Made by a program: the position numbers and the translations under genes. Below the pieces are notes generated by a model. That model saw only the letters and a list, made by a program, of their open reading frames with translations. It ran no database searches and had not been told where the DNA came from. From a virus, in IMG/VR virus record IMGVR_UViG_3300044703_000138, positions 1 to 46,317 of that record: a stretch of 46,317 bases of DNA; one strand, 5' to 3'. This document shows, piece by piece, positions 15,677-30,791 of this stretch; the stretch's first letter is position 1, and each line of letters begins with the position of its first letter.

Positions 15677-15825
15677 CCCTCCCCACACATGAAGCCGGAT
15701 GCAGGATGCCTACCGAGCAAGGCATTTCGCGCGCCGACGAGGTTCATCGGACTCAAGCCGAGCTCGACAACATATCCTTCCTAAAGGCCCTCAAGCGCTA
15801 CTTCGACAAGGGAGGGAAGGGGTGA
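15673..15825 (+). CDS. 50-residue helical protein
   Basis: Read directly from ATG 15673 (ATGA overlap) to TGA 15825 (GTGA overlap with rusA). It ends with a basic amphipathic helix NISFLKALKRYFDKGGKG. Nested overlaps on both sides support it as a real gene. Function unknown. Confidence 0.6.
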   Translation: MTLPTHEAGCRMPTEQGISRADEVHRTQAELDNISFLKALKRYFDKGGKG

Positions 15826-16148
15826 CTCTCGAGCTTCCCTGGCCGTCCTCGAGCCTTTCCGGCCACAACACCGGACATTGGCGGAAGAAGGCTGGCATCG
15901 TCGCTCAGCATCGCGACTGGGCGAAGTCGGCTACGCTCGCTGAGGGAAAGCCAAATATCCCAGCTGGCGACATTCAGCTGATCGTCGCTTTCTATCCGCC
16001 GAATCGCCGCGGCGACCGGGTCAACTTCCCCAACCGGATGAAGCCCTATTTCGACGGCATAGCTGATGACCGCTTCCTTCCGTCCTATCAATTCGGCGAG
16101 CCCGTCAAGCACGGGAAAGTCGTCATCGGGATCGAGGTGGCGGAGTGA
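15822..16148 (+). CDS. rusA: RusA-like Holliday junction resolvase
   Basis: A 108-residue protein with the RusA fold pattern: LPWPSSSLSGHNTGHWRKKA at the start, the beta strand IQLIVAFYPP, and the acidic/basic active-site segment RRGDRVNFPNRMKPYFDGIA, where Asp65, Lys74 and Asp78 are the likely catalytic residues. RusA dimers cut Holliday junctions and in phages resolve replicating concatemers before packaging. GTG 15822 is set by the overlap with the upstream gene. Length is close to E. coli RusA (120). Confidence 0.88.
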   Translation: MTLELPWPSSSLSGHNTGHWRKKAGIVAQHRDWAKSATLAEGKPNIPAGDIQLIVAFYPPNRRGDRVNFPNRMKPYFDGIADDRFLPSYQFGEPVKHGKVVIGIEVAE

Positions 16149-16471: not shown

Positions 16472-17160
16472 ACCTTGAAGGTGAGGGCGCATCCTCGCTG
16501 CGCGAGGACCGGGCCGGCGGTCCTTCGGACCTGAGCCGCTCTGCGTCTCAGCCGGAGGCGCTCGTCCCATTGCGCAAGATGCGCTTCGCCTATGCCGACC
16601 CGCCCTATCTCGGGCGCGGCGAATATTACCGCGCCCAACATCCAGACGCAATGTCGTGGAACGATCCCGAGACGCATTGCGCGTTAATCGAGCGCCTGCA
16701 GGCTGACTTCCCGGACGGCTGGGTTCTCAGCCTGAGTGAGCGCAGCCTGCGGACGATACTTCCGATGTGCCCGCCGGAAGCGCGCGTTGGCGCCTGGATA
16801 ACGGACCGCGCCCGCTATGCCGGCAAGGCCGTCCCAGTCCGCAAGCATTTCGAGCCGGTGATATTCATGGGGGGCCGGCCGTACAGCGACACCGGCAACC
16901 GCGCCGCCGACTTCATCATTACGAAGCAGGAGCGCCAACCTGCAGGCCAGCCCCGATATGCGATGGTGAAGCAGGACATTCGTGCCGGCAAGATATTCGT
17001 CGGCAAGAAGCCTGCCGCCTTTGCGAGGTGGGTATTCGAGCTTCTCGGCCTCGCCGCGGGCGACGAGCTGGTCGACCTTTTTCCCGGATCCGGCGCCATC
17101 TCAGATGCTCTGGAAAAGTGGCGCGCTCAACTCTCCATGTTCACCGGCGAAGCCGCATGA
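16462..17160 (+). CDS. DPPY-type DNA methyltransferase
   Basis: A 232-residue protein with the amino-methyltransferase motif YADPPYLG at residues 44-51 and, near residue 210, the SAM-binding motif DLFPGSGAISDALEKW. The order DPPY before FxGxG is that of the beta class. It probably methylates adenine N6 or cytosine N4. No endonuclease partner is nearby, so it is an orphan phage methylase, likely protecting phage DNA or marking it for regulation. The first ~39 residues may be untranslated, with M40 as an alternative start. It ends in an ATGA overlap. Confidence 0.85.
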   Translation: MRIDLEGEGASSLREDRAGGPSDLSRSASQPEALVPLRKMRFAYADPPYLGRGEYYRAQHPDAMSWNDPETHCALIERLQADFPDGWVLSLSERSLRTILPMCPPEARVGAWITDRARYAGKAVPVRKHFEPVIFMGGRPYSDTGNRAADFIITKQERQPAGQPRYAMVKQDIRAGKIFVGKKPAAFARWVFELLGLAAGDELVDLFPGSGAISDALEKWRAQLSMFTGEAA

Positions 17161-17918
17161 GCGGCTATCTCCGCATCATCAGTTGGGATCGCCTCCAGCA
17201 CTACAAGGACCGCAACCCTCCTTGGATCAAGCTGCACCGCGATCTCCTGACCAGCGAGACCTGGGTTTCCTCGTCTCATGACGACCGCGTGCTAGCAGTT
17301 GCTATCATGATGCTAGCAGCCGCTACGGGAAACCGCGTGCCGGCCAATCCGCGGTACATTCAGCGTGTCGCGTACCTCGAAAGGGAGCCTGACTTCGCCT
17401 CCCTTATAGCCCTTAAGTTCATGGAAATAATAGAAGAAAAAGCCGCTGCTAGCAAGACGCTAGCATCCGCTAGACCAGAGACAGAGAACAGAGAACAGAA
17501 AGAAGATTCAGTAGAAGCTGACGCTTCTACTGGCGCTGACGCGCCGAAAGCCCCGTCAGCGATCGACCTGAAAGCCGCCGTTTTCGCTTCTGGCGTCCCG
17601 CTCCTGCAAAGCACCGGGTCCACAGACCGCAACGCCCGCTCGATGCTTGGAAGGTGGCGCTCCAGCCATGGAGACGCCGCCGTGCTTGACGCGCTCGCCG
17701 CTGCCACCGCGCAAGCCGTTTCGGACCCCATCCCCTGGATCATTCGCAGACTGGAAAACGGAAATGGACGACGTCAACCTGCCGCCTCACGGCCATCGCC
17801 CGCCCTCGAGCTCTACAAACGTGGTGCGCTTCGAGAGGCCGAAGAAGCGGATATCGGCGAAGACGGAGCGCTTGATCGGGGAGCTTGGGCTACGCTACCG
17901 CCCCTCGGCACAGGCTGA
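17157..17918 (+). CDS. Phage replication initiator-like protein
   Basis: A 253-residue protein beginning ISWDRLQHYKDRNPPWIKLH, then RDLLTSETWVSSSHDDRVLA, the N-terminal region of a common phage replisome-organiser group, followed by a disordered middle (Glu/Ser/Ala) and a helical C-terminal domain (SMLGRWRSSHGDAAVLDALA, then PWIIRRLE). It is expected to bind the phage origin and recruit helicase, like lambda O. The start overlaps the methyltransferase stop. Iterons are not evident in the gene. Confidence 0.72.
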   Translation: MSGYLRIISWDRLQHYKDRNPPWIKLHRDLLTSETWVSSSHDDRVLAVAIMMLAAATGNRVPANPRYIQRVAYLEREPDFASLIALKFMEIIEEKAAASKTLASARPETENREQKEDSVEADASTGADAPKAPSAIDLKAAVFASGVPLLQSTGSTDRNARSMLGRWRSSHGDAAVLDALAAATAQAVSDPIPWIIRRLENGNGRRQPAASRPSPALELYKRGALREAEEADIGEDGALDRGAWATLPPLGTG

Positions 17919-18274: not shown

Positions 18275-18844
18275 GTGAGCGACTGGTGCATCCTTCGAAC
18301 AGCGTCACGTCATACGATGGGCCTCGCGGCTTCGTTGGCGAAGGACGGCTACAACGTGTGGACTCCGATCGAACATCGGACGATCCGCATACCGAGGGCT
18401 AACATCCGCCGGCCAATCACCCTCCCGATCATGCCAAGCTACGTGTTCGCGCGCGTTCAGCATCTGGTCGACCTCCTCGAGCTGGCGAACATGCCGGTCA
18501 AGCCTCGCCGTGGCGCCGGGTTGAGGGAGCCCGCCCATGCGAATTTCTCGGTCCTCCACTGGCACGACAAGATCCCGCTCGTGGCCGATAGAGACCTTGA
18601 GCAGCTTCGCAAGATAGAGGCTAAGCGCACTCCGGCCAGAAAGGCGGACAGGGCATTCTCCAGGGACGCGACGGTCAAGGTCGACGGCGGTAGCTTCGGC
18701 GGCATGGTCGGGATCGTCGAGCGCTCGGACAGGGGACAAACGCTCGTCTGCTTCAATGAGCGCTACACCGTGAAAATAGCCACTTGCCTGCTGAATCTGG
18801 ATGAGGTATCTAATTACCAACCCGCCGCATTGAAAGCGGCTTAG
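18275..18844 (+). CDS. NusG/RfaH-like transcription antiterminator
   Basis: A 189-residue NusG paralogue. The N-terminal NGN-type domain (WCILRTASRHTMGLAASLAK, then DGYNVWTPIEHRT and ITLPIMPSYVFARVQ) keeps the W-x-x-x-x and LPGYVF-like landmarks. The C-terminal KOW-type segment is FGGMVGIVERSDRGQTLVCF. NusG paralogues travel with RNA polymerase and suppress pausing and termination at chosen operons. Lying after the replication genes and before the late operon, it takes the place of lambda Q. GTG 18275 follows GAGGGAGGGG. Confidence 0.85.
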   Translation: MSDWCILRTASRHTMGLAASLAKDGYNVWTPIEHRTIRIPRANIRRPITLPIMPSYVFARVQHLVDLLELANMPVKPRRGAGLREPAHANFSVLHWHDKIPLVADRDLEQLRKIEAKRTPARKADRAFSRDATVKVDGGSFGGMVGIVERSDRGQTLVCFNERYTVKIATCLLNLDEVSNYQPAALKAA

Positions 18845-18975
18845 GGGAGCGAGCATCCGGACCATAGAGTCCGCTTCTCCGAGCGAAAGCCCGGCAGGCT
18901 CTCTCCCGCAGCGTAGACCGGGAAGGTGCAACGCACCGCGCCGGGAAATTCCTAAAACTCGTCCAAAATTCCCCA
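18845..18975 (+). promoter_or_regulatory. Structured untranslated RNA before late operon
   Basis: The 146-base gap after the NusG-like gene has no ORF but three stem-loops in a row: CGGAC/GTCCG (18858-18873), CCCGG/CCGGG (18890-18922) and GGTGC-AAC-GCACC (18925-18937). The first is enclosed by GGAG/CTCC. No T-run follows any of them. Candidate loading site (ops/put-like) for the NusG-like protein or leader of the late message. A promoter is not recognisable. Confidence 0.5.
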
Positions 18976-18990
18976 GTGCGAGGGTGCGTA

Positions 18991-19377
18991 ATGGCTGACT
19001 TGCTCAGGCCTGTAGACCTGCAGCCCGTGCCCGTTTCCCGTGTGGATGCGAGCTTCCGGCACAGCGGGGTCTACTTCCTCTTCCACGCTGGTGAGGTGGT
19101 CTATGTAGGCCAGTCGAACAGCGTTCTACGCCGTATCGGCGAGCATATGTCGGATTGCAGAAAGGCGTTCGACTCGGTTGCATTCATCGCTTGTCAGGCC
19201 CTCAACCGCCTTTGGCTGGAGGCTCAGTACATCGAGCGTTTCAGGCCCCGGTATAATCAGCCGGAGATCCAGGAGATTCCCGAGCTGACTCGAAAGCGTC
19301 GGAGCGGCAGGCGCAGTGCGCAGAGGCGCAATCGTCGGAAGTTTCTGGCTGAGCAGTCTGCGGTCTACCAAGCATAG
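18991..19377 (+). CDS. GIY-YIG nuclease
   Basis: A 128-residue protein of the GIY-YIG superfamily: SGVYFLFHAGEVVYVGQS with the GVY (26-28) and YVG (38-40) motifs, Arg48 (LRRIGEH), Glu77 (WLEAQYIERF) and Asn89 (RYNQP). All catalytic positions are present. The C-terminus is a basic tail (RKRRSGRRSAQRRNRR). Being first in the late operon next to terminase, it may be a homing nuclease or help in DNA packaging, as HNH nucleases do in other phages. ATG 18991. Confidence 0.85.
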   Translation: MADLLRPVDLQPVPVSRVDASFRHSGVYFLFHAGEVVYVGQSNSVLRRIGEHMSDCRKAFDSVAFIACQALNRLWLEAQYIERFRPRYNQPEIQEIPELTRKRRSGRRSAQRRNRRKFLAEQSAVYQA

Positions 19378-19760: not shown

Positions 19761-19898
19761 ATGTCCCTCGCAGCCATCTTCCTCATCATCGCCCTCATCC
19801 TCTTCATCGTGGATGCGATAGGCGTTGCATCGAGGATCAACCTCCAGTCCGCCGGCCTCGCGTTCATCGCCGCAGCCATGCTCGTGCCGATGGTGTGA
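19761..19898 (+). CDS. 45-residue membrane peptide
   Basis: Nearly wholly hydrophobic: MSLAAIFLIIALILFIVDAI, then SAGLAFIAAAMLVPMV, i.e. two short membrane helices with a polar turn (ASRINLQ). Small membrane peptides of this kind are common near phage terminase. TGATG overlap with the next gene. Confidence 0.65.
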   Translation: MSLAAIFLIIALILFIVDAIGVASRINLQSAGLAFIAAAMLVPMV

Positions 19899-20035
19899 TG
19901 GGATACCGCTGCTTCAACTGCCAGACGGTCGTCACGAACGGCCGACATGGCTACGTCGAATGCATCAAGGCGCAGCGCTCTTTGCGCTACCGACTGATCG
20001 GCTGGCTATTGGCGCGGTTGGGTGTGAGGGTGTGA
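19898..20035 (+). CDS. 45-residue zinc-ribbon protein
   Basis: Begins MGYRCFNCQTVVTNGRHGYV with a CxxC and a third Cys (VEC); the second half is a basic amphipathic helix ending in WLLARLGVRV. TGATG overlaps on both sides, tying it to the terminase small subunit. Confidence 0.6.
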   Translation: MGYRCFNCQTVVTNGRHGYVECIKAQRSLRYRLIGWLLARLGVRV

Positions 20036-20646
20036 TGGCGCTGTCTCCCAAGCAGGAACGCTTCGTCGCCGAGTACCTACTCGACCTCAACGCGACACAG
20101 GCTGCGATCAGGGCTGGCTACAGCCGAGACACAGCCCGCTCCATCGGCAGCGAGAACCTGACGAAACCCGACATCGCGGCGGCGGTCGAAAAAGCCATGG
20201 CCGAGCGCTCGATCCGCACCGAAATTACCGCGGACAAGGTGTTGCGCGAGCTTGCCAGGATCGGCTTCTCGGATATCCGCCGCGCCGTGAAATGGCACTC
20301 GCAGGTCAACGTCGCCACGGTCGACGCCGATGCTGACATGGAAGCTCTTGCCGGAGAGGGCGCGCTACGGTTCGCCGTCGCCAATCAGGTGGAGCTGGTT
20401 TCGAGCGGCGAGATCGATGACGAAACCGCGGCGGCTGTAGCCGAGATAAGCCAGTCGTCCACCGGCGCCTTGCGGATCAAGATGTACGACAAGCGCGCAG
20501 CTCTGGTCGACATCGGCAAGCATTTGGGGATGTTCAAGGAACGTGTCGAGCTTAGCGGCCATATTGCCACAGAGCCACTTGGCCTATCCGAGCTTCTTGG
20601 AGTCCTTGGACAGGCGGCTCGGGAAGGGGACGCCGGAGTCCATTGA
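20035..20646 (+). CDS. terS: Terminase small subunit
   Basis: A 203-residue protein of the Terminase_2 type: LSPKQERFVAEYLLDLNATQ, AAIRAGYSRDTARSIGSENL, then PDIAAAVEKAMAER, an N-terminal HTH that recognises the packaging site, followed by an oligomerisation region and a C-terminus that contacts the large subunit (SELLGVLGQAAREGD). Start ATG 20035 overlaps the upstream stop. The end overlaps terL by 104 bases. Confidence 0.92.
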   Translation: MALSPKQERFVAEYLLDLNATQAAIRAGYSRDTARSIGSENLTKPDIAAAVEKAMAERSIRTEITADKVLRELARIGFSDIRRAVKWHSQVNVATVDADADMEALAGEGALRFAVANQVELVSSGEIDDETAAAVAEISQSSTGALRIKMYDKRAALVDIGKHLGMFKERVELSGHIATEPLGLSELLGVLGQAAREGDAGVH

Positions 20647-22078
20647 GGCAGCGCGTTGGCTGTGTCTGAACGACCTGTTTTTCCTGCTCACAGTTGGTCT
20701 TCACAGAGGGGATGCTTTGAACCCTTGGGTCTTCGCACGATGCAGGGAAGTCCAGTCCGCGCCCGACGGCTATCTCGATCTCTGGGCACGCGAGCATTAC
20801 AAGTCGACGGTCATCACCTTCGCCAAGACGATCCAGGACATCTTACGCGATCCCGAGGTGACGATAGGCATCTTCAGCCACACCCGCCCGATCGCCAAGG
20901 CATTCCTCCGTCAGATCAAGCAGGAGCTGGAGACCAACGAGACGCTGAAGGCGTGGTTTCCGGGGATATTGTGGGAGAACCCGCAGAAGCACTCGCCCAA
21001 GTGGTCCGAGGACGAAGGGATCGTCGTCAAGCGGCACTCGAACCCCAAGGAAGCAACGGTCGAAGCCTGGGGTGTGGTGGACGGGCAGCCTACGTCCAAG
21101 CACTTCGCCATCCTCATCTATGATGACGTGGTGACCAAGGAGTCCGTATCTACCCCCGAGATGATGCTGAAGACGACGAACAGCCTGGCACTGTCCTACA
21201 ACCTCGGCAGCATCGGGGGTGTTCGCCGCTTCATCGGCACCCGCTATCACCTCAACGACACGTACAAGACGGTCATCGACCGGGGCACGGCCAAGCCGCG
21301 GCTCTACCCGGCGACGAAGGACGGAAAGGTTGAGGGCGAGCCCGTCTTCCTCACCCGAGAGCAGCTGGCGGACAAGAGAGCGGATATGGGCCCCTACGTC
21401 TTCGCCTGCCAGATGCTCCAAGACCCCAAGGCGGACGAGACACAGGGCTTCAAGCAGGAATGGTTGCGCTACGCTTCAACCGATCCCCGTCACCTGAATA
21501 TCGTCATCGTCATCGACTCGGCCAGCGCGAAGAAGAAGACCAGCGACTACACGGCCGGATGGGTTCTGGGCCTCGGCGCCGACCGCAACATCTACGTCCT
21601 GGACATGGTGAGAGACCGTCTGTCGCTCACCCAACGCGCCGATCTGGTGATGGGCTGGCACCGGCGCTGGCAACCGATGGCGGTAGGCTACGAGCAATAC
21701 GGCATGATGGCCGACATCGAGCATATCGAAGATCGGCAGGCGCGGGAGAATTACAGGTTCACGATCACGCCCCTCGGCGGGACCATGGCCAAGGTCGACC
21801 GCATTCGCCGGCTCATCCCCTGGTTCGAGAAGGGGCGGGTGTTCCTCATGCCCCAACTCGTGAAGACGAATTACGAGGGCAAGGCTCTGGACCTGACCAA
21901 GGCATTTGTCGACGAGGAGTATCTTCCGTTTCCCGTGGCGGCGCACGACGACATGCTCGACTCGATGGCGCGCGTTCTGGACGAGGACTTGCCCGTCACC
22001 TTCCCGCTGGCGATGGCCTGGGAAGACGAGGATGAAACCGAGCGCGAGCGCGGGCGGTCGAAGGTTACAGGCTACTGA
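20543..22078 (+). CDS. terL: Terminase large subunit
   Basis: A 511-residue packaging motor. ATPase: deviant Walker A WAREHYKSTVITF (residues 81-93, typical of this TerL group), Walker B ILIYDDV (190-196) and the coupling motif RFIGTRYH (229-236). The nuclease half starts at VIVIDSAS (Asp325) and ends with AHDDMLDSMA, supplying the metal-binding acidic residues. It cuts and pumps concatemeric DNA through the portal. The start (GTG 20543) lies inside terS in another frame. Confidence 0.95.
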   Translation: MSSLAAILPQSHLAYPSFLESLDRRLGKGTPESIEAARWLCLNDLFFLLTVGLHRGDALNPWVFARCREVQSAPDGYLDLWAREHYKSTVITFAKTIQDILRDPEVTIGIFSHTRPIAKAFLRQIKQELETNETLKAWFPGILWENPQKHSPKWSEDEGIVVKRHSNPKEATVEAWGVVDGQPTSKHFAILIYDDVVTKESVSTPEMMLKTTNSLALSYNLGSIGGVRRFIGTRYHLNDTYKTVIDRGTAKPRLYPATKDGKVEGEPVFLTREQLADKRADMGPYVFACQMLQDPKADETQGFKQEWLRYASTDPRHLNIVIVIDSASAKKKTSDYTAGWVLGLGADRNIYVLDMVRDRLSLTQRADLVMGWHRRWQPMAVGYEQYGMMADIEHIEDRQARENYRFTITPLGGTMAKVDRIRRLIPWFEKGRVFLMPQLVKTNYEGKALDLTKAFVDEEYLPFPVAAHDDMLDSMARVLDEDLPVTFPLAMAWEDEDETERERGRSKVTGY

Positions 22079-24721: not shown

Positions 24722-24959
24722 CCGAGACGACTTCGCTCGCTGGCGCGACGATCATGTGACGCGCTGGGTCATGCGGGCGCACGAGACCATGGCCGAGGCC
24801 TGCCGGCAGGAGTGGCTGGGGATATCGTGGGGGAACGGCAGCGCCAACGCAGGCGCGCTGAGCGAGCTCAGGACAAGGGCGGACACGTACATGGCCCTTT
24901 CCCAAAGCACCTACGAGGGCTTCTGCGAGACGAATGGAGACGAGCCGAGTGAGGAATGA
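24711..24959 (+). CDS. Small protein between portal and GroES
   Basis: An 82-residue acidic helical protein (MQPSRDDFARWRDDHVTRWV, then ALSELRTRADTYMALSQSTY). It overlaps the end of the portal gene by 11 bases. Similar small proteins follow portals in P22-like phages; function unknown. Confidence 0.65.
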   Translation: MQPSRDDFARWRDDHVTRWVMRAHETMAEACRQEWLGISWGNGSANAGALSELRTRADTYMALSQSTYEGFCETNGDEPSEE

Positions 24960-25290
24960 CAGCGGGCTGCGGCCGATGGAATATAACGTCGTGGTCGAGA
25001 TGGACCCGACGGAAGAGGTCACCAGGGGCGGGATCATCCTCCCCTCGAGCAAGACGGACAGGGACAAGCTCGCGACGGAAGAAGGGGTACTGGTGGCATT
25101 GAGCCCGCACGCCTTCACCTACGAGGCGTGGCCGGAGGGCGAGACACCTCCCCAGGCCGGCGATCGAGTCCTGATCGCTCGCTATGCCGGCGCCATCCAC
25201 GAGCGGGGCGGGAAGACGTTCCGCATCCTGAAGGACAAGGACATCGTCGCCGTCGTCGAGCCGTCACAGGCTCTGGCCGCGGTCGCTTAG
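24949..25290 (+). CDS. Phage-encoded GroES-like co-chaperonin
   Basis: A 113-residue Cpn10-family protein. It has GLRPMEYNVVVEMDPTEEVT, the mobile-loop/roof-like segment RGGIILPSSKTDRDKL, and the strands EEGVLVALSPHAF and GDRVLIARYAGAIHE, ending RILKDKDIVAVVE. All these map on GroES in order. Like T4 gp31, it may enlarge the GroEL cage so that the phage capsid protein can fold. GTG 24949 is preceded by GGAG 9 bases upstream, with ATG 24934 as an alternative. It lies next to portal and scaffold genes, as expected for a folding helper. Confidence 0.85.
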   Translation: MRNDSGLRPMEYNVVVEMDPTEEVTRGGIILPSSKTDRDKLATEEGVLVALSPHAFTYEAWPEGETPPQAGDRVLIARYAGAIHERGGKTFRILKDKDIVAVVEPSQALAAVA

Positions 25291-29837: not shown

Positions 29838-30740
29838 ATGAGCGTTCAGACTCGCTCCGACCTGCCCAGCCTTCTGTGGCCGGGCCTCCATGCACTCTTC
29901 GGGACGGAATATGCGAAATGGGAGAAGGTCTACACCAAGATCTTCGACGTTCGCTCGTCCGACAAGGCCTCTGAGAAGGTTGCCGAGCTCACCGGGCTCG
30001 GCCTCGCTTCGGTCAAGGCCGAGGGCGCGTCCATCGTCTACGACAAGCCCGGTCAGGGTCCGGAGACGACCTTCACCCACGTCACCTACGGCCTCGGGTT
30101 CATGATGACCCGCGAGGCCGAAGAGGACAATCAGTACCGGGACATCGCCGAGAACAACACCAAGGCGCTCTCCTGGTCGATGGGCACCACCAAGGAGATC
30201 GTCCACGCGAACATCCTCAACCGGATGCAGAATAGCTCCTATGTCGGAGGGGACGGGAAATCGCTGGTCGCCAGCGATCACCCGACCGCCAACGGCACTC
30301 AGAGCAATCTGCTGACGGCGGCGGATGCGAGCGAGGCGATGTTCGAAGACGCCTTCACCCTCATCATGGCGGCGAAGACGAGCCGGGGGCTTCCGATCAA
30401 GGTTCGCCCGGTGCGGATCATCGCAGGGCCGGGTCAGATTTTCAACCTGACCCGCATCTTCGAAAGCGTCGCGCGCGTGGGAACCGCCAACAACGACGTC
30501 AACGCCCTGAAGACCCTCGGCATGGCGCCGGAAATCGTCCTCAATCCCTATCTGGACGACGCCGACGCCATCTTCATCCAGACCAACGTGCCCAACGGCC
30601 TGATCTCGTTCCAGCGCCGAGCGCTGGATTTCGAGAAGGACTCGGACTTCGACACCGAGAACCGCAAGCAGAAGGCCACCGAGCGCTATTCGGCCGGCTG
30701 GGGCGACTGGCGGTCGATGTACGGCAACGCCGGGGCTTAG
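29838..30740 (+). CDS. Major capsid protein
   Basis: A 300-residue coat protein. Landmarks: LPSLLWPGLHALFGTEYAKW, SVKAEGASIVYDKPGQGPET, VTYGLGFMMTREAEEDNQY, then LDDADAIFIQTNVPNGLISF, consistent with the HK97-fold gpT-like coat family. It is shorter than P22 gp5 (430) and lacks its telokin insertion. GGAAAGGA is 8 bases before ATG. A strong terminator follows. Confidence 0.85.
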   Translation: MSVQTRSDLPSLLWPGLHALFGTEYAKWEKVYTKIFDVRSSDKASEKVAELTGLGLASVKAEGASIVYDKPGQGPETTFTHVTYGLGFMMTREAEEDNQYRDIAENNTKALSWSMGTTKEIVHANILNRMQNSSYVGGDGKSLVASDHPTANGTQSNLLTAADASEAMFEDAFTLIMAAKTSRGLPIKVRPVRIIAGPGQIFNLTRIFESVARVGTANNDVNALKTLGMAPEIVLNPYLDDADAIFIQTNVPNGLISFQRRALDFEKDSDFDTENRKQKATERYSAGWGDWRSMYGNAGA

Positions 30741-30753
30741 CCTGTGAGGGAGG

Positions 30754-30791
30754 GCCCCGCGCCCTAGTTCAAAGGCGGGGCAACCATTTTT
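30754..30791 (+). terminator. Rho-independent terminator after coat gene
   Basis: Stem GCCCCGC/GCGGGGC (30754-30760 with 30775-30781), a 14-base loop, then AACCATTTTT. It sits between the coat gene and the next structural gene, so it would make coat the most abundant product while some polymerase reads through. The NusG-like antiterminator would raise read-through. Confidence 0.8.

Follow-up and report, generated by a model that had tools for sequence, protein, structure and literature searches.

LoaP, a specialised NusG paralogue, suppresses termination after binding to a hairpin in the leader, and it has been described as the sole NusG-like protein of bacteria for which binding to a specific RNA element is known (PMC12691694). 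RfaH is recruited by the ops DNA hairpin, in which a four-base loop is closed by C:G (PMC5995543). Lambdoid phages carry Q at the border between early and late genes, and put elements act in cis without a phage protein. In an alphaproteobacterium, GafZ functions in antitermination of structural gene clusters (PMC11150451). To our knowledge, no pair of a NusG-like protein and an RNA element has been known in phages, and a literature search, restricted to open-licence full texts, found no account of a phage-encoded NusG paralogue accompanied by a leader RNA.

The locus described here lies in a virus record of 46,317 bases, the whole of which is referred to as the window. It encodes a NusG paralogue tightly associated with a conserved RNA of coding-strand polarity, which has a fixed place before the late genes.

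A NusG paralogue gene at the early/late border

Integrase and recombination genes occupy the minus strand at the left of the window. The rightward early genes include a RusA-like gene (15699-16148) and a replication gene (17160-17918), after which the NusG-like gene follows; two closely spaced terminator-like hairpins are present on the minus strand at 17447-17532, opposite the early rightward genes. 3' of the leader, the order is GIY-YIG, small and large terminase subunits, portal, major head protein (29838-30740) and further structural genes (Table 1), and a GroES-like co-chaperonin gene is located amid the head genes (24934-25290; PHROG 3188, 2e-14). The NusG-like gene and its leader sit at the early/late border. 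A GIY-YIG nuclease gene heads the late side in the window (18976-19377) and in relatives L012 and L026, and HNH genes do so in others.

An initial annotation, made from the sequence alone, had claimed a 189-residue NusG paralogue at this position, and this claim holds. The gene product matches Pfam NusG (25.2 bits vs a cut-off of 22.2) and, over residues 2-162, the PHROG 6386 profile (E 4e-21), whose name 'transcription antiterminator' is an annotation with no tested function behind the label. An AlphaFold2 model based on an alignment of 30 relatives has a pLDDT of 90; the modelled NGN aligns with the RfaH NTD (Z 10.0, 99 of 101 residues at 2.4 A), and the model also matches PDB entry 8f5g, 'NusG-RNA complex', which we take to be a LoaP complex. 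The superfamily criterion for NusG, an NGN followed by a KOW, is met according to Pfam, the model and the PDB matches. The CTD is modelled as a plain KOW beta-barrel, and therefore no RfaH-like refolded state is suggested. Among named NusG paralogues, UpxY is the top NCBIfam match; the cut-offs of the UpxY family (NF033644, 44.9 bits vs 100) and of the RfaH family (TIGR01955, 18.2 bits vs 144.5) are not reached.

The further claim that no Q-like gene is present holds for the ORFs tested: neither the NusG-like protein nor its neighbours at 14.9-20.6 kb match a Q-family PHROG, which does not prove absence or exclude a Q elsewhere. The claimed 146 bases without an ORF hold up to the ATG at 18991, and become 131 bases if the GTG at 18976 is the start; no gene is called within the gap in either case. 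The claimed terminator within the late operon is present as a site (GCCCCGC..GCGGGGC, AACCA, TTTTT) directly 3' of the major head protein gene, and is non-canonical in that its T run begins late; a consensus scan did not call it. A role as antitermination target is plausible, but it is an inference without transcription data and remains no more than a possibility.

Table 1. Positions of the features discussed, in window coordinates unless a relative is named
Feature	Location	Strand	Basis or remarks
NusG paralogue (NGN + KOW), proposed antiterminator	18275..18844	+	GTG start, 189 aa; Pfam, PHROG, AlphaFold2 model, PDB matches
P1 hairpin GCCGC-ATTGAAA-GCGGC, gene's end	18824..18840	+	z -2.96; conserved and covarying in relatives
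P2 three-way junction, two hairpins	18845..18907	+	z -2.65; same shape, other stem sequences in L015, L018
P3 hairpin, outer CCGG/CCGG, inner GGTGC/GCACC	18918..18944	+	aligned in eight near relatives
3' motif AATTCCTAAAACTCG	18947..18961	+	divergent variant of relatives' ops-like mini-hairpin; also in L018, L019, L094
GIY-YIG nuclease gene, first behind leader	18991..19377	+	Pfam 27.9 bits; alternative start GTG at 18976
Terminase small subunit	19825..20646	+	PHROG 51, 8e-41; true start probably inside ORF
Terminase large subunit, late-gene start	20543..22078	+	PHROG 38, 8e-54
Candidate intrinsic terminator, possible target	30754..30791	+	sequence and fold; absent from consensus scan list
Cargo interval (PEP-CTERM-like)	L067:10722-11426		
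Cargo interval	L055:10755-11138		
Cargo interval	L028: 10561 to about 11330		
Cargo interval	L039: 10543 to about 11600		
Cargo interval	L012: 10553 to about 10830		

Structure and covariation of the leader RNA

Protein-based scans recovered 72 IMG/VR loci, some of which are duplicates of one contig, and four loci in Sphingomonas/Sphingobium genomes, with NusG-like proteins of 27 to 64% identity. Inspection of the DNA behind each gene's stop codon revealed a recurring layout, consisting of P1, P2, P3 and a short 3' motif. This structured RNA is found in about 50 divergent relatives, which are metagenomic viruses and Sphingomonadaceae prophages; the identified hosts of the phage/prophage family are Sphingomonas-type bacteria. 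No clear element was seen 3' of the NusG-like gene in L027 and L060. From about position 10665 of L060, homology to L058 stops 11 bases past the NusG-like stop codon and no terminase follows; L060 is likely a prophage truncated inside the leader. Searches with three family members found no isolated-phage record with a relative, and wider class and phylum searches found no further RNA-bearing member (of the hits, only L101 and L104 had readable proteins, and these look RfaH-like; L100, L102 and L103 are unresolved).

In relatives, P1 is a hairpin of the form GCCGC-NNNN-GCGGC, and the stop codon frequently lies in its loop. In the window, P1 is located within the gene, upstream of the stop codon, and therefore the RNA begins within the NusG-like ORF. 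P2 occurs in three subtypes, namely a hairpin with a GAUCU/UGCG internal loop, a simpler hairpin, and a three-way junction, the last of which is that of the window and its nearest relatives. The window P2 has outer (GGGAG/CTCCC) and inner (GAGC/GCTC) stems and two hairpins (CGGAC/GTCCG and CCGaGC-GAAA-GCcCGG); the same shape is predicted for L015 and L018, and roughly for L001. The three consecutive stem-loops of the initial annotation are more accurately given as P1 in the gene end, a three-way junction with two hairpins, and P3. The window loops (CAUAGA, GAAA and AAC) do not meet the criterion of a LoaP-type UNCG hairpin, and UUCG/UACG loops are present in only some relatives. Rfam gave no match at gathering scores in the window or seven relatives, nor did 18700-19100 yield any when E values up to 1 were allowed.

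In 42 of 50 loci, the 3' motif is able to fold into a two-pair hairpin whose loop has 3-4 nt and whose stems are mostly GC/GC or CC/GG (for example, TGC-GAAA-GCGTGG); this mini-hairpin is similar, not identical, to ops. As a caution, 45% of random 18-mers can also form such a hairpin, and the motif position was chosen by eye. The window's own 3' motif does not form the C-N3/4-G hairpin. The exact ops element GGCGGTAGNNTG is absent from the window, and its one-mismatch matches fall outside the leader. These matches number 10 vs 3.4 expected, possibly owing to codon usage, and one of them (18686-18697, plus strand) lies within the KOW-coding part of the NusG-like gene. An exact ops core, GCGGTAGC, in the 3' motif of L026 was not weighed, as that locus contains this 8-mer three times. 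Right after the 3' motif, at the start of the late region, tRNA-like sequences were recognised by eye in L023, L031, L039, L059, L063, L070 and L092.

Folding energy supports the window structure beyond chance only in parts: P1 and P2 are moderately unusual (Table 1), and the z values of P3 and the whole gap are +0.14 and -1.10. Averaged across 50 relatives, z is -0.73 vs -0.60 for the downstream stretch (p 0.17), and folding energy was discarded as evidence, the element being no different from flanking DNA.

Conservation and covariation across relatives place the leader beyond chance. A covariance model, R1, built from six ungapped sequences, found the element behind NusG-like genes in relatives outside its training set (E 5e-12 to 0.02, with lower certainty at higher E). 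The remainder of the 1 Mb searched gave no comparable match; in L063, a reverse-strand match overlapping the element (0.06) reflects palindromy. R1 also gave secondary matches in other parts of the window, at E 0.3 or higher, which were discarded as weak. In 19 sequences of the GAUCU subtype, which aligns best, compensatory changes alter both sides of 14 of the 17 pairs, 90.9% of cells are paired vs 32-63% when the partner is slid, and none of 500 shuffles reaches any of the five measures used. Because this alignment was fitted to the structure, the counts are biased towards it, and the argument rests on the size of the difference from the slid controls. In 13 of the 19 sequences, the inner P2 stem is closed by a G-U pair; this would be A-C on the opposite strand, and the functional molecule is therefore coding-strand RNA. 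For P3 and the mini-hairpin, an alignment made without fitting to the structure gives weaker but still positive support. With a MAFFT alignment of all elements, RNAalifold recovered no more than three pairs, all in P1, owing to the differing lengths of P2 and P3, and the seed and covariance model were used instead.

The covariation test does not extend to the window's three-way-junction subtype. For that subtype, a small hand-made table shows stem sequences that differ with pairing retained, and the outer stem of P3 is altered on both sides in L013 and L036 among the eight near relatives aligned.

Association of the RNA with its gene and with the late genes

A blind R1 search of 299 host-family genomes gave two strong matches outside the training set (1.2e-11 and 3.7e-6), both directly behind NusG-like genes of 52-55% identity. 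Weak matches (E about 0.005) had no adjoining NusG-like gene and were judged to be chance. A protein-alignment search of the same 299 genomes matched 9, including both with strong R1 matches. When DNA downstream of further paralogues was inspected, the element was found in L091, L092, L093 and L098 (L090, L095 and L096 were not included), and L094 bears a reduced element with the window's own 3' motif. The initial annotation's idea that the leader belongs with this gene thereby survived the check in relatives, where the leader is conserved, covarying and co-occurring in a blind search.

In at least 44 of 50 loci, the first large gene on the downstream side encodes a terminase, belonging to one of four families. 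At least six phages (L012, L024, L028, L039, L055 and L067) have a single gene inserted between the NusG-like gene and the RNA, and despite the insertion the RNA still precedes HNH/GIY-YIG, tRNA or terminase genes. The RNA is therefore a leader of the late operon and not the 3' tail of the nusG-like transcript. Displaced copies were located by R1 and by reading, as most matches from an automatic motif scan for them were due to chance. The cargo slot holds unrelated genes in different phages, including PEP-CTERM-like and lipoprotein-like genes.

RNA subtype tracks protein clade, with 4 changes vs a shuffled mean of 19.6; such co-segregation is expected anyway of adjacent genes with a shared history and is no proof of contact. 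More telling for a protein-RNA partnership is a comparison of L022 with L074, a prophage of Sphingomonas PAMC 26621. The flanking DNA of the two is about 87% alike. Their first 41 codons are almost exactly shared, the gene from codon 41 onward and P1, P2 and P3 differ, and the two are alike again at the mini-hairpin GGTTGTCCTACGGC. The RNA and most of the protein were thus once swapped as one cassette. This exchange is a single event, and its breakpoints also depend on where homology exists.

A proposed late antitermination module, its alternatives and known systems

The best reading is late antitermination by the NusG paralogue loaded at the leader RNA, which is considered likely although there are no transcription, binding or expression data. 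In this model, the early rightward operon, with its RusA-like and replication genes, would end with the gene for the specialised paralogue, and polymerase continuing past that gene would make the structured RNA, P1-P2-P3 and the short 3' motif. The paralogue would recognise this cis-element during synthesis, load on that same polymerase instead of host NusG, and ride it through the terminase, portal, head and tail genes, where it would suppress both pausing and termination. The module may take the role that Q proteins play in lambdoid phages. Action of the paralogue and leader on the late operon is well supported on anatomical grounds, and the initial proposal of a late antitermination system stands to the same extent; that the protein binds the RNA, is loaded there and antiterminates is inferred. 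There are reservations: covariation leaves the window subtype untouched apart from the small hand-made comparison, no ops-like hairpin forms in the window's 3' motif, and folding energy does not separate the element from its surroundings.

Three alternatives were considered. The RNA might be the 3' end of the nusG-like message, with an autoregulatory or stabilising function that sets the level of the protein. The frequent position of the stop codon in the P1 loop and the usual start of the RNA at the gene end favour this explanation, but in the six phages with an intervening cargo gene the RNA remains with the late genes, and this makes it unlikely. It is similarly improbable that the RNA antiterminates by itself as HK022 put does or mainly serves host Nus factors, or that the paralogue acts mainly on translation coupling, as the RfaH CTD does, instead of on termination. 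The elaborate leader RNA counts for the former and the action of the RfaH CTD in translation (PMC7819879; PMC12691694) for the latter; however, the gene-RNA pairing and joint cassette exchange imply the protein as partner, and the plain KOW barrel of the model does not point to an RfaH-like refolded state. A DNA packaging site (cos/pac) read by terminase and unrelated to the NusG-like protein would agree with the many inverted repeats and the position just before terminase genes in most relatives, but is very unlikely in view of G-U pairs that point to RNA of one strand, the presence of the same element ahead of four unrelated terminase families, blind searches that place it behind NusG-like genes only, and its exchange along with the NusG-like gene in an event that left the terminase side unchanged.

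Within the preferred reading of late antitermination, a bolder version can be entertained only tentatively, in which dual recognition of structured RNA and an ops-like DNA mini-hairpin combines the principles of LoaP and RfaH. The first NGN helix would read the non-template DNA mini-hairpin at the RNA 3' end, and later NGN residues and the KOW would read the P1-P3 RNA. The L022/L074 exchange fits this version, in that the first 41 residues and the mini-hairpin stayed and the remaining protein and the RNA changed together.

If the preferred reading is true, this would be a second, different NusG-like/RNA pair after LoaP, and a Q-independent way for temperate phages to turn on late genes. With about 50 protein/RNA pairs, a natural chimera and three RNA subtypes, the choice of operon by NusG paralogues becomes directly testable. 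The pair would also serve as a marker of the early/late border in many unclassified phages and as a compact antitermination part.

Among known systems, lambdoid Q and GafZ of the Caulobacter gene transfer agent resemble the phage module in early/late border position and proposed role, but they are not NusG paralogues and their known or proposed loading sites are in the late promoter. UpxY of Bacteroides gives the best NCBIfam score of a named paralogue; the phage protein is nevertheless far below that family's cut-off, and UpxY serves capsule operons, not phage late genes. RfaH shares the NGN fold, and the C-N3/4-G 3' hairpin of most relatives resembles ops GGC-GGTA-GCGTG (PMC5995543); unlike RfaH, which serves cell-envelope operons in trans, the phage protein scores below the RfaH cut-off and is accompanied by extra structured RNA, with no exact ops in the window. 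The LoaP/dfn system of Bacillus velezensis likewise joins a specialised NusG paralogue to a leader RNA structure of a long operon, and has terminator readthrough results (PMC12691694), whereas readthrough in the phage system is inferred. LoaP reads one UNCG hairpin; the phage RNA is larger, has no conserved UNCG loop, occurs in phages of Sphingomonadaceae and is encoded next to its own NusG-like gene, in front of late genes. Features of both RfaH (ops) and LoaP may be present in this system. That a specialised NusG paralogue works with a recruitment element is a known principle; what appears to be new is this particular pair of protein and RNA, and its use as a late switch in phages.
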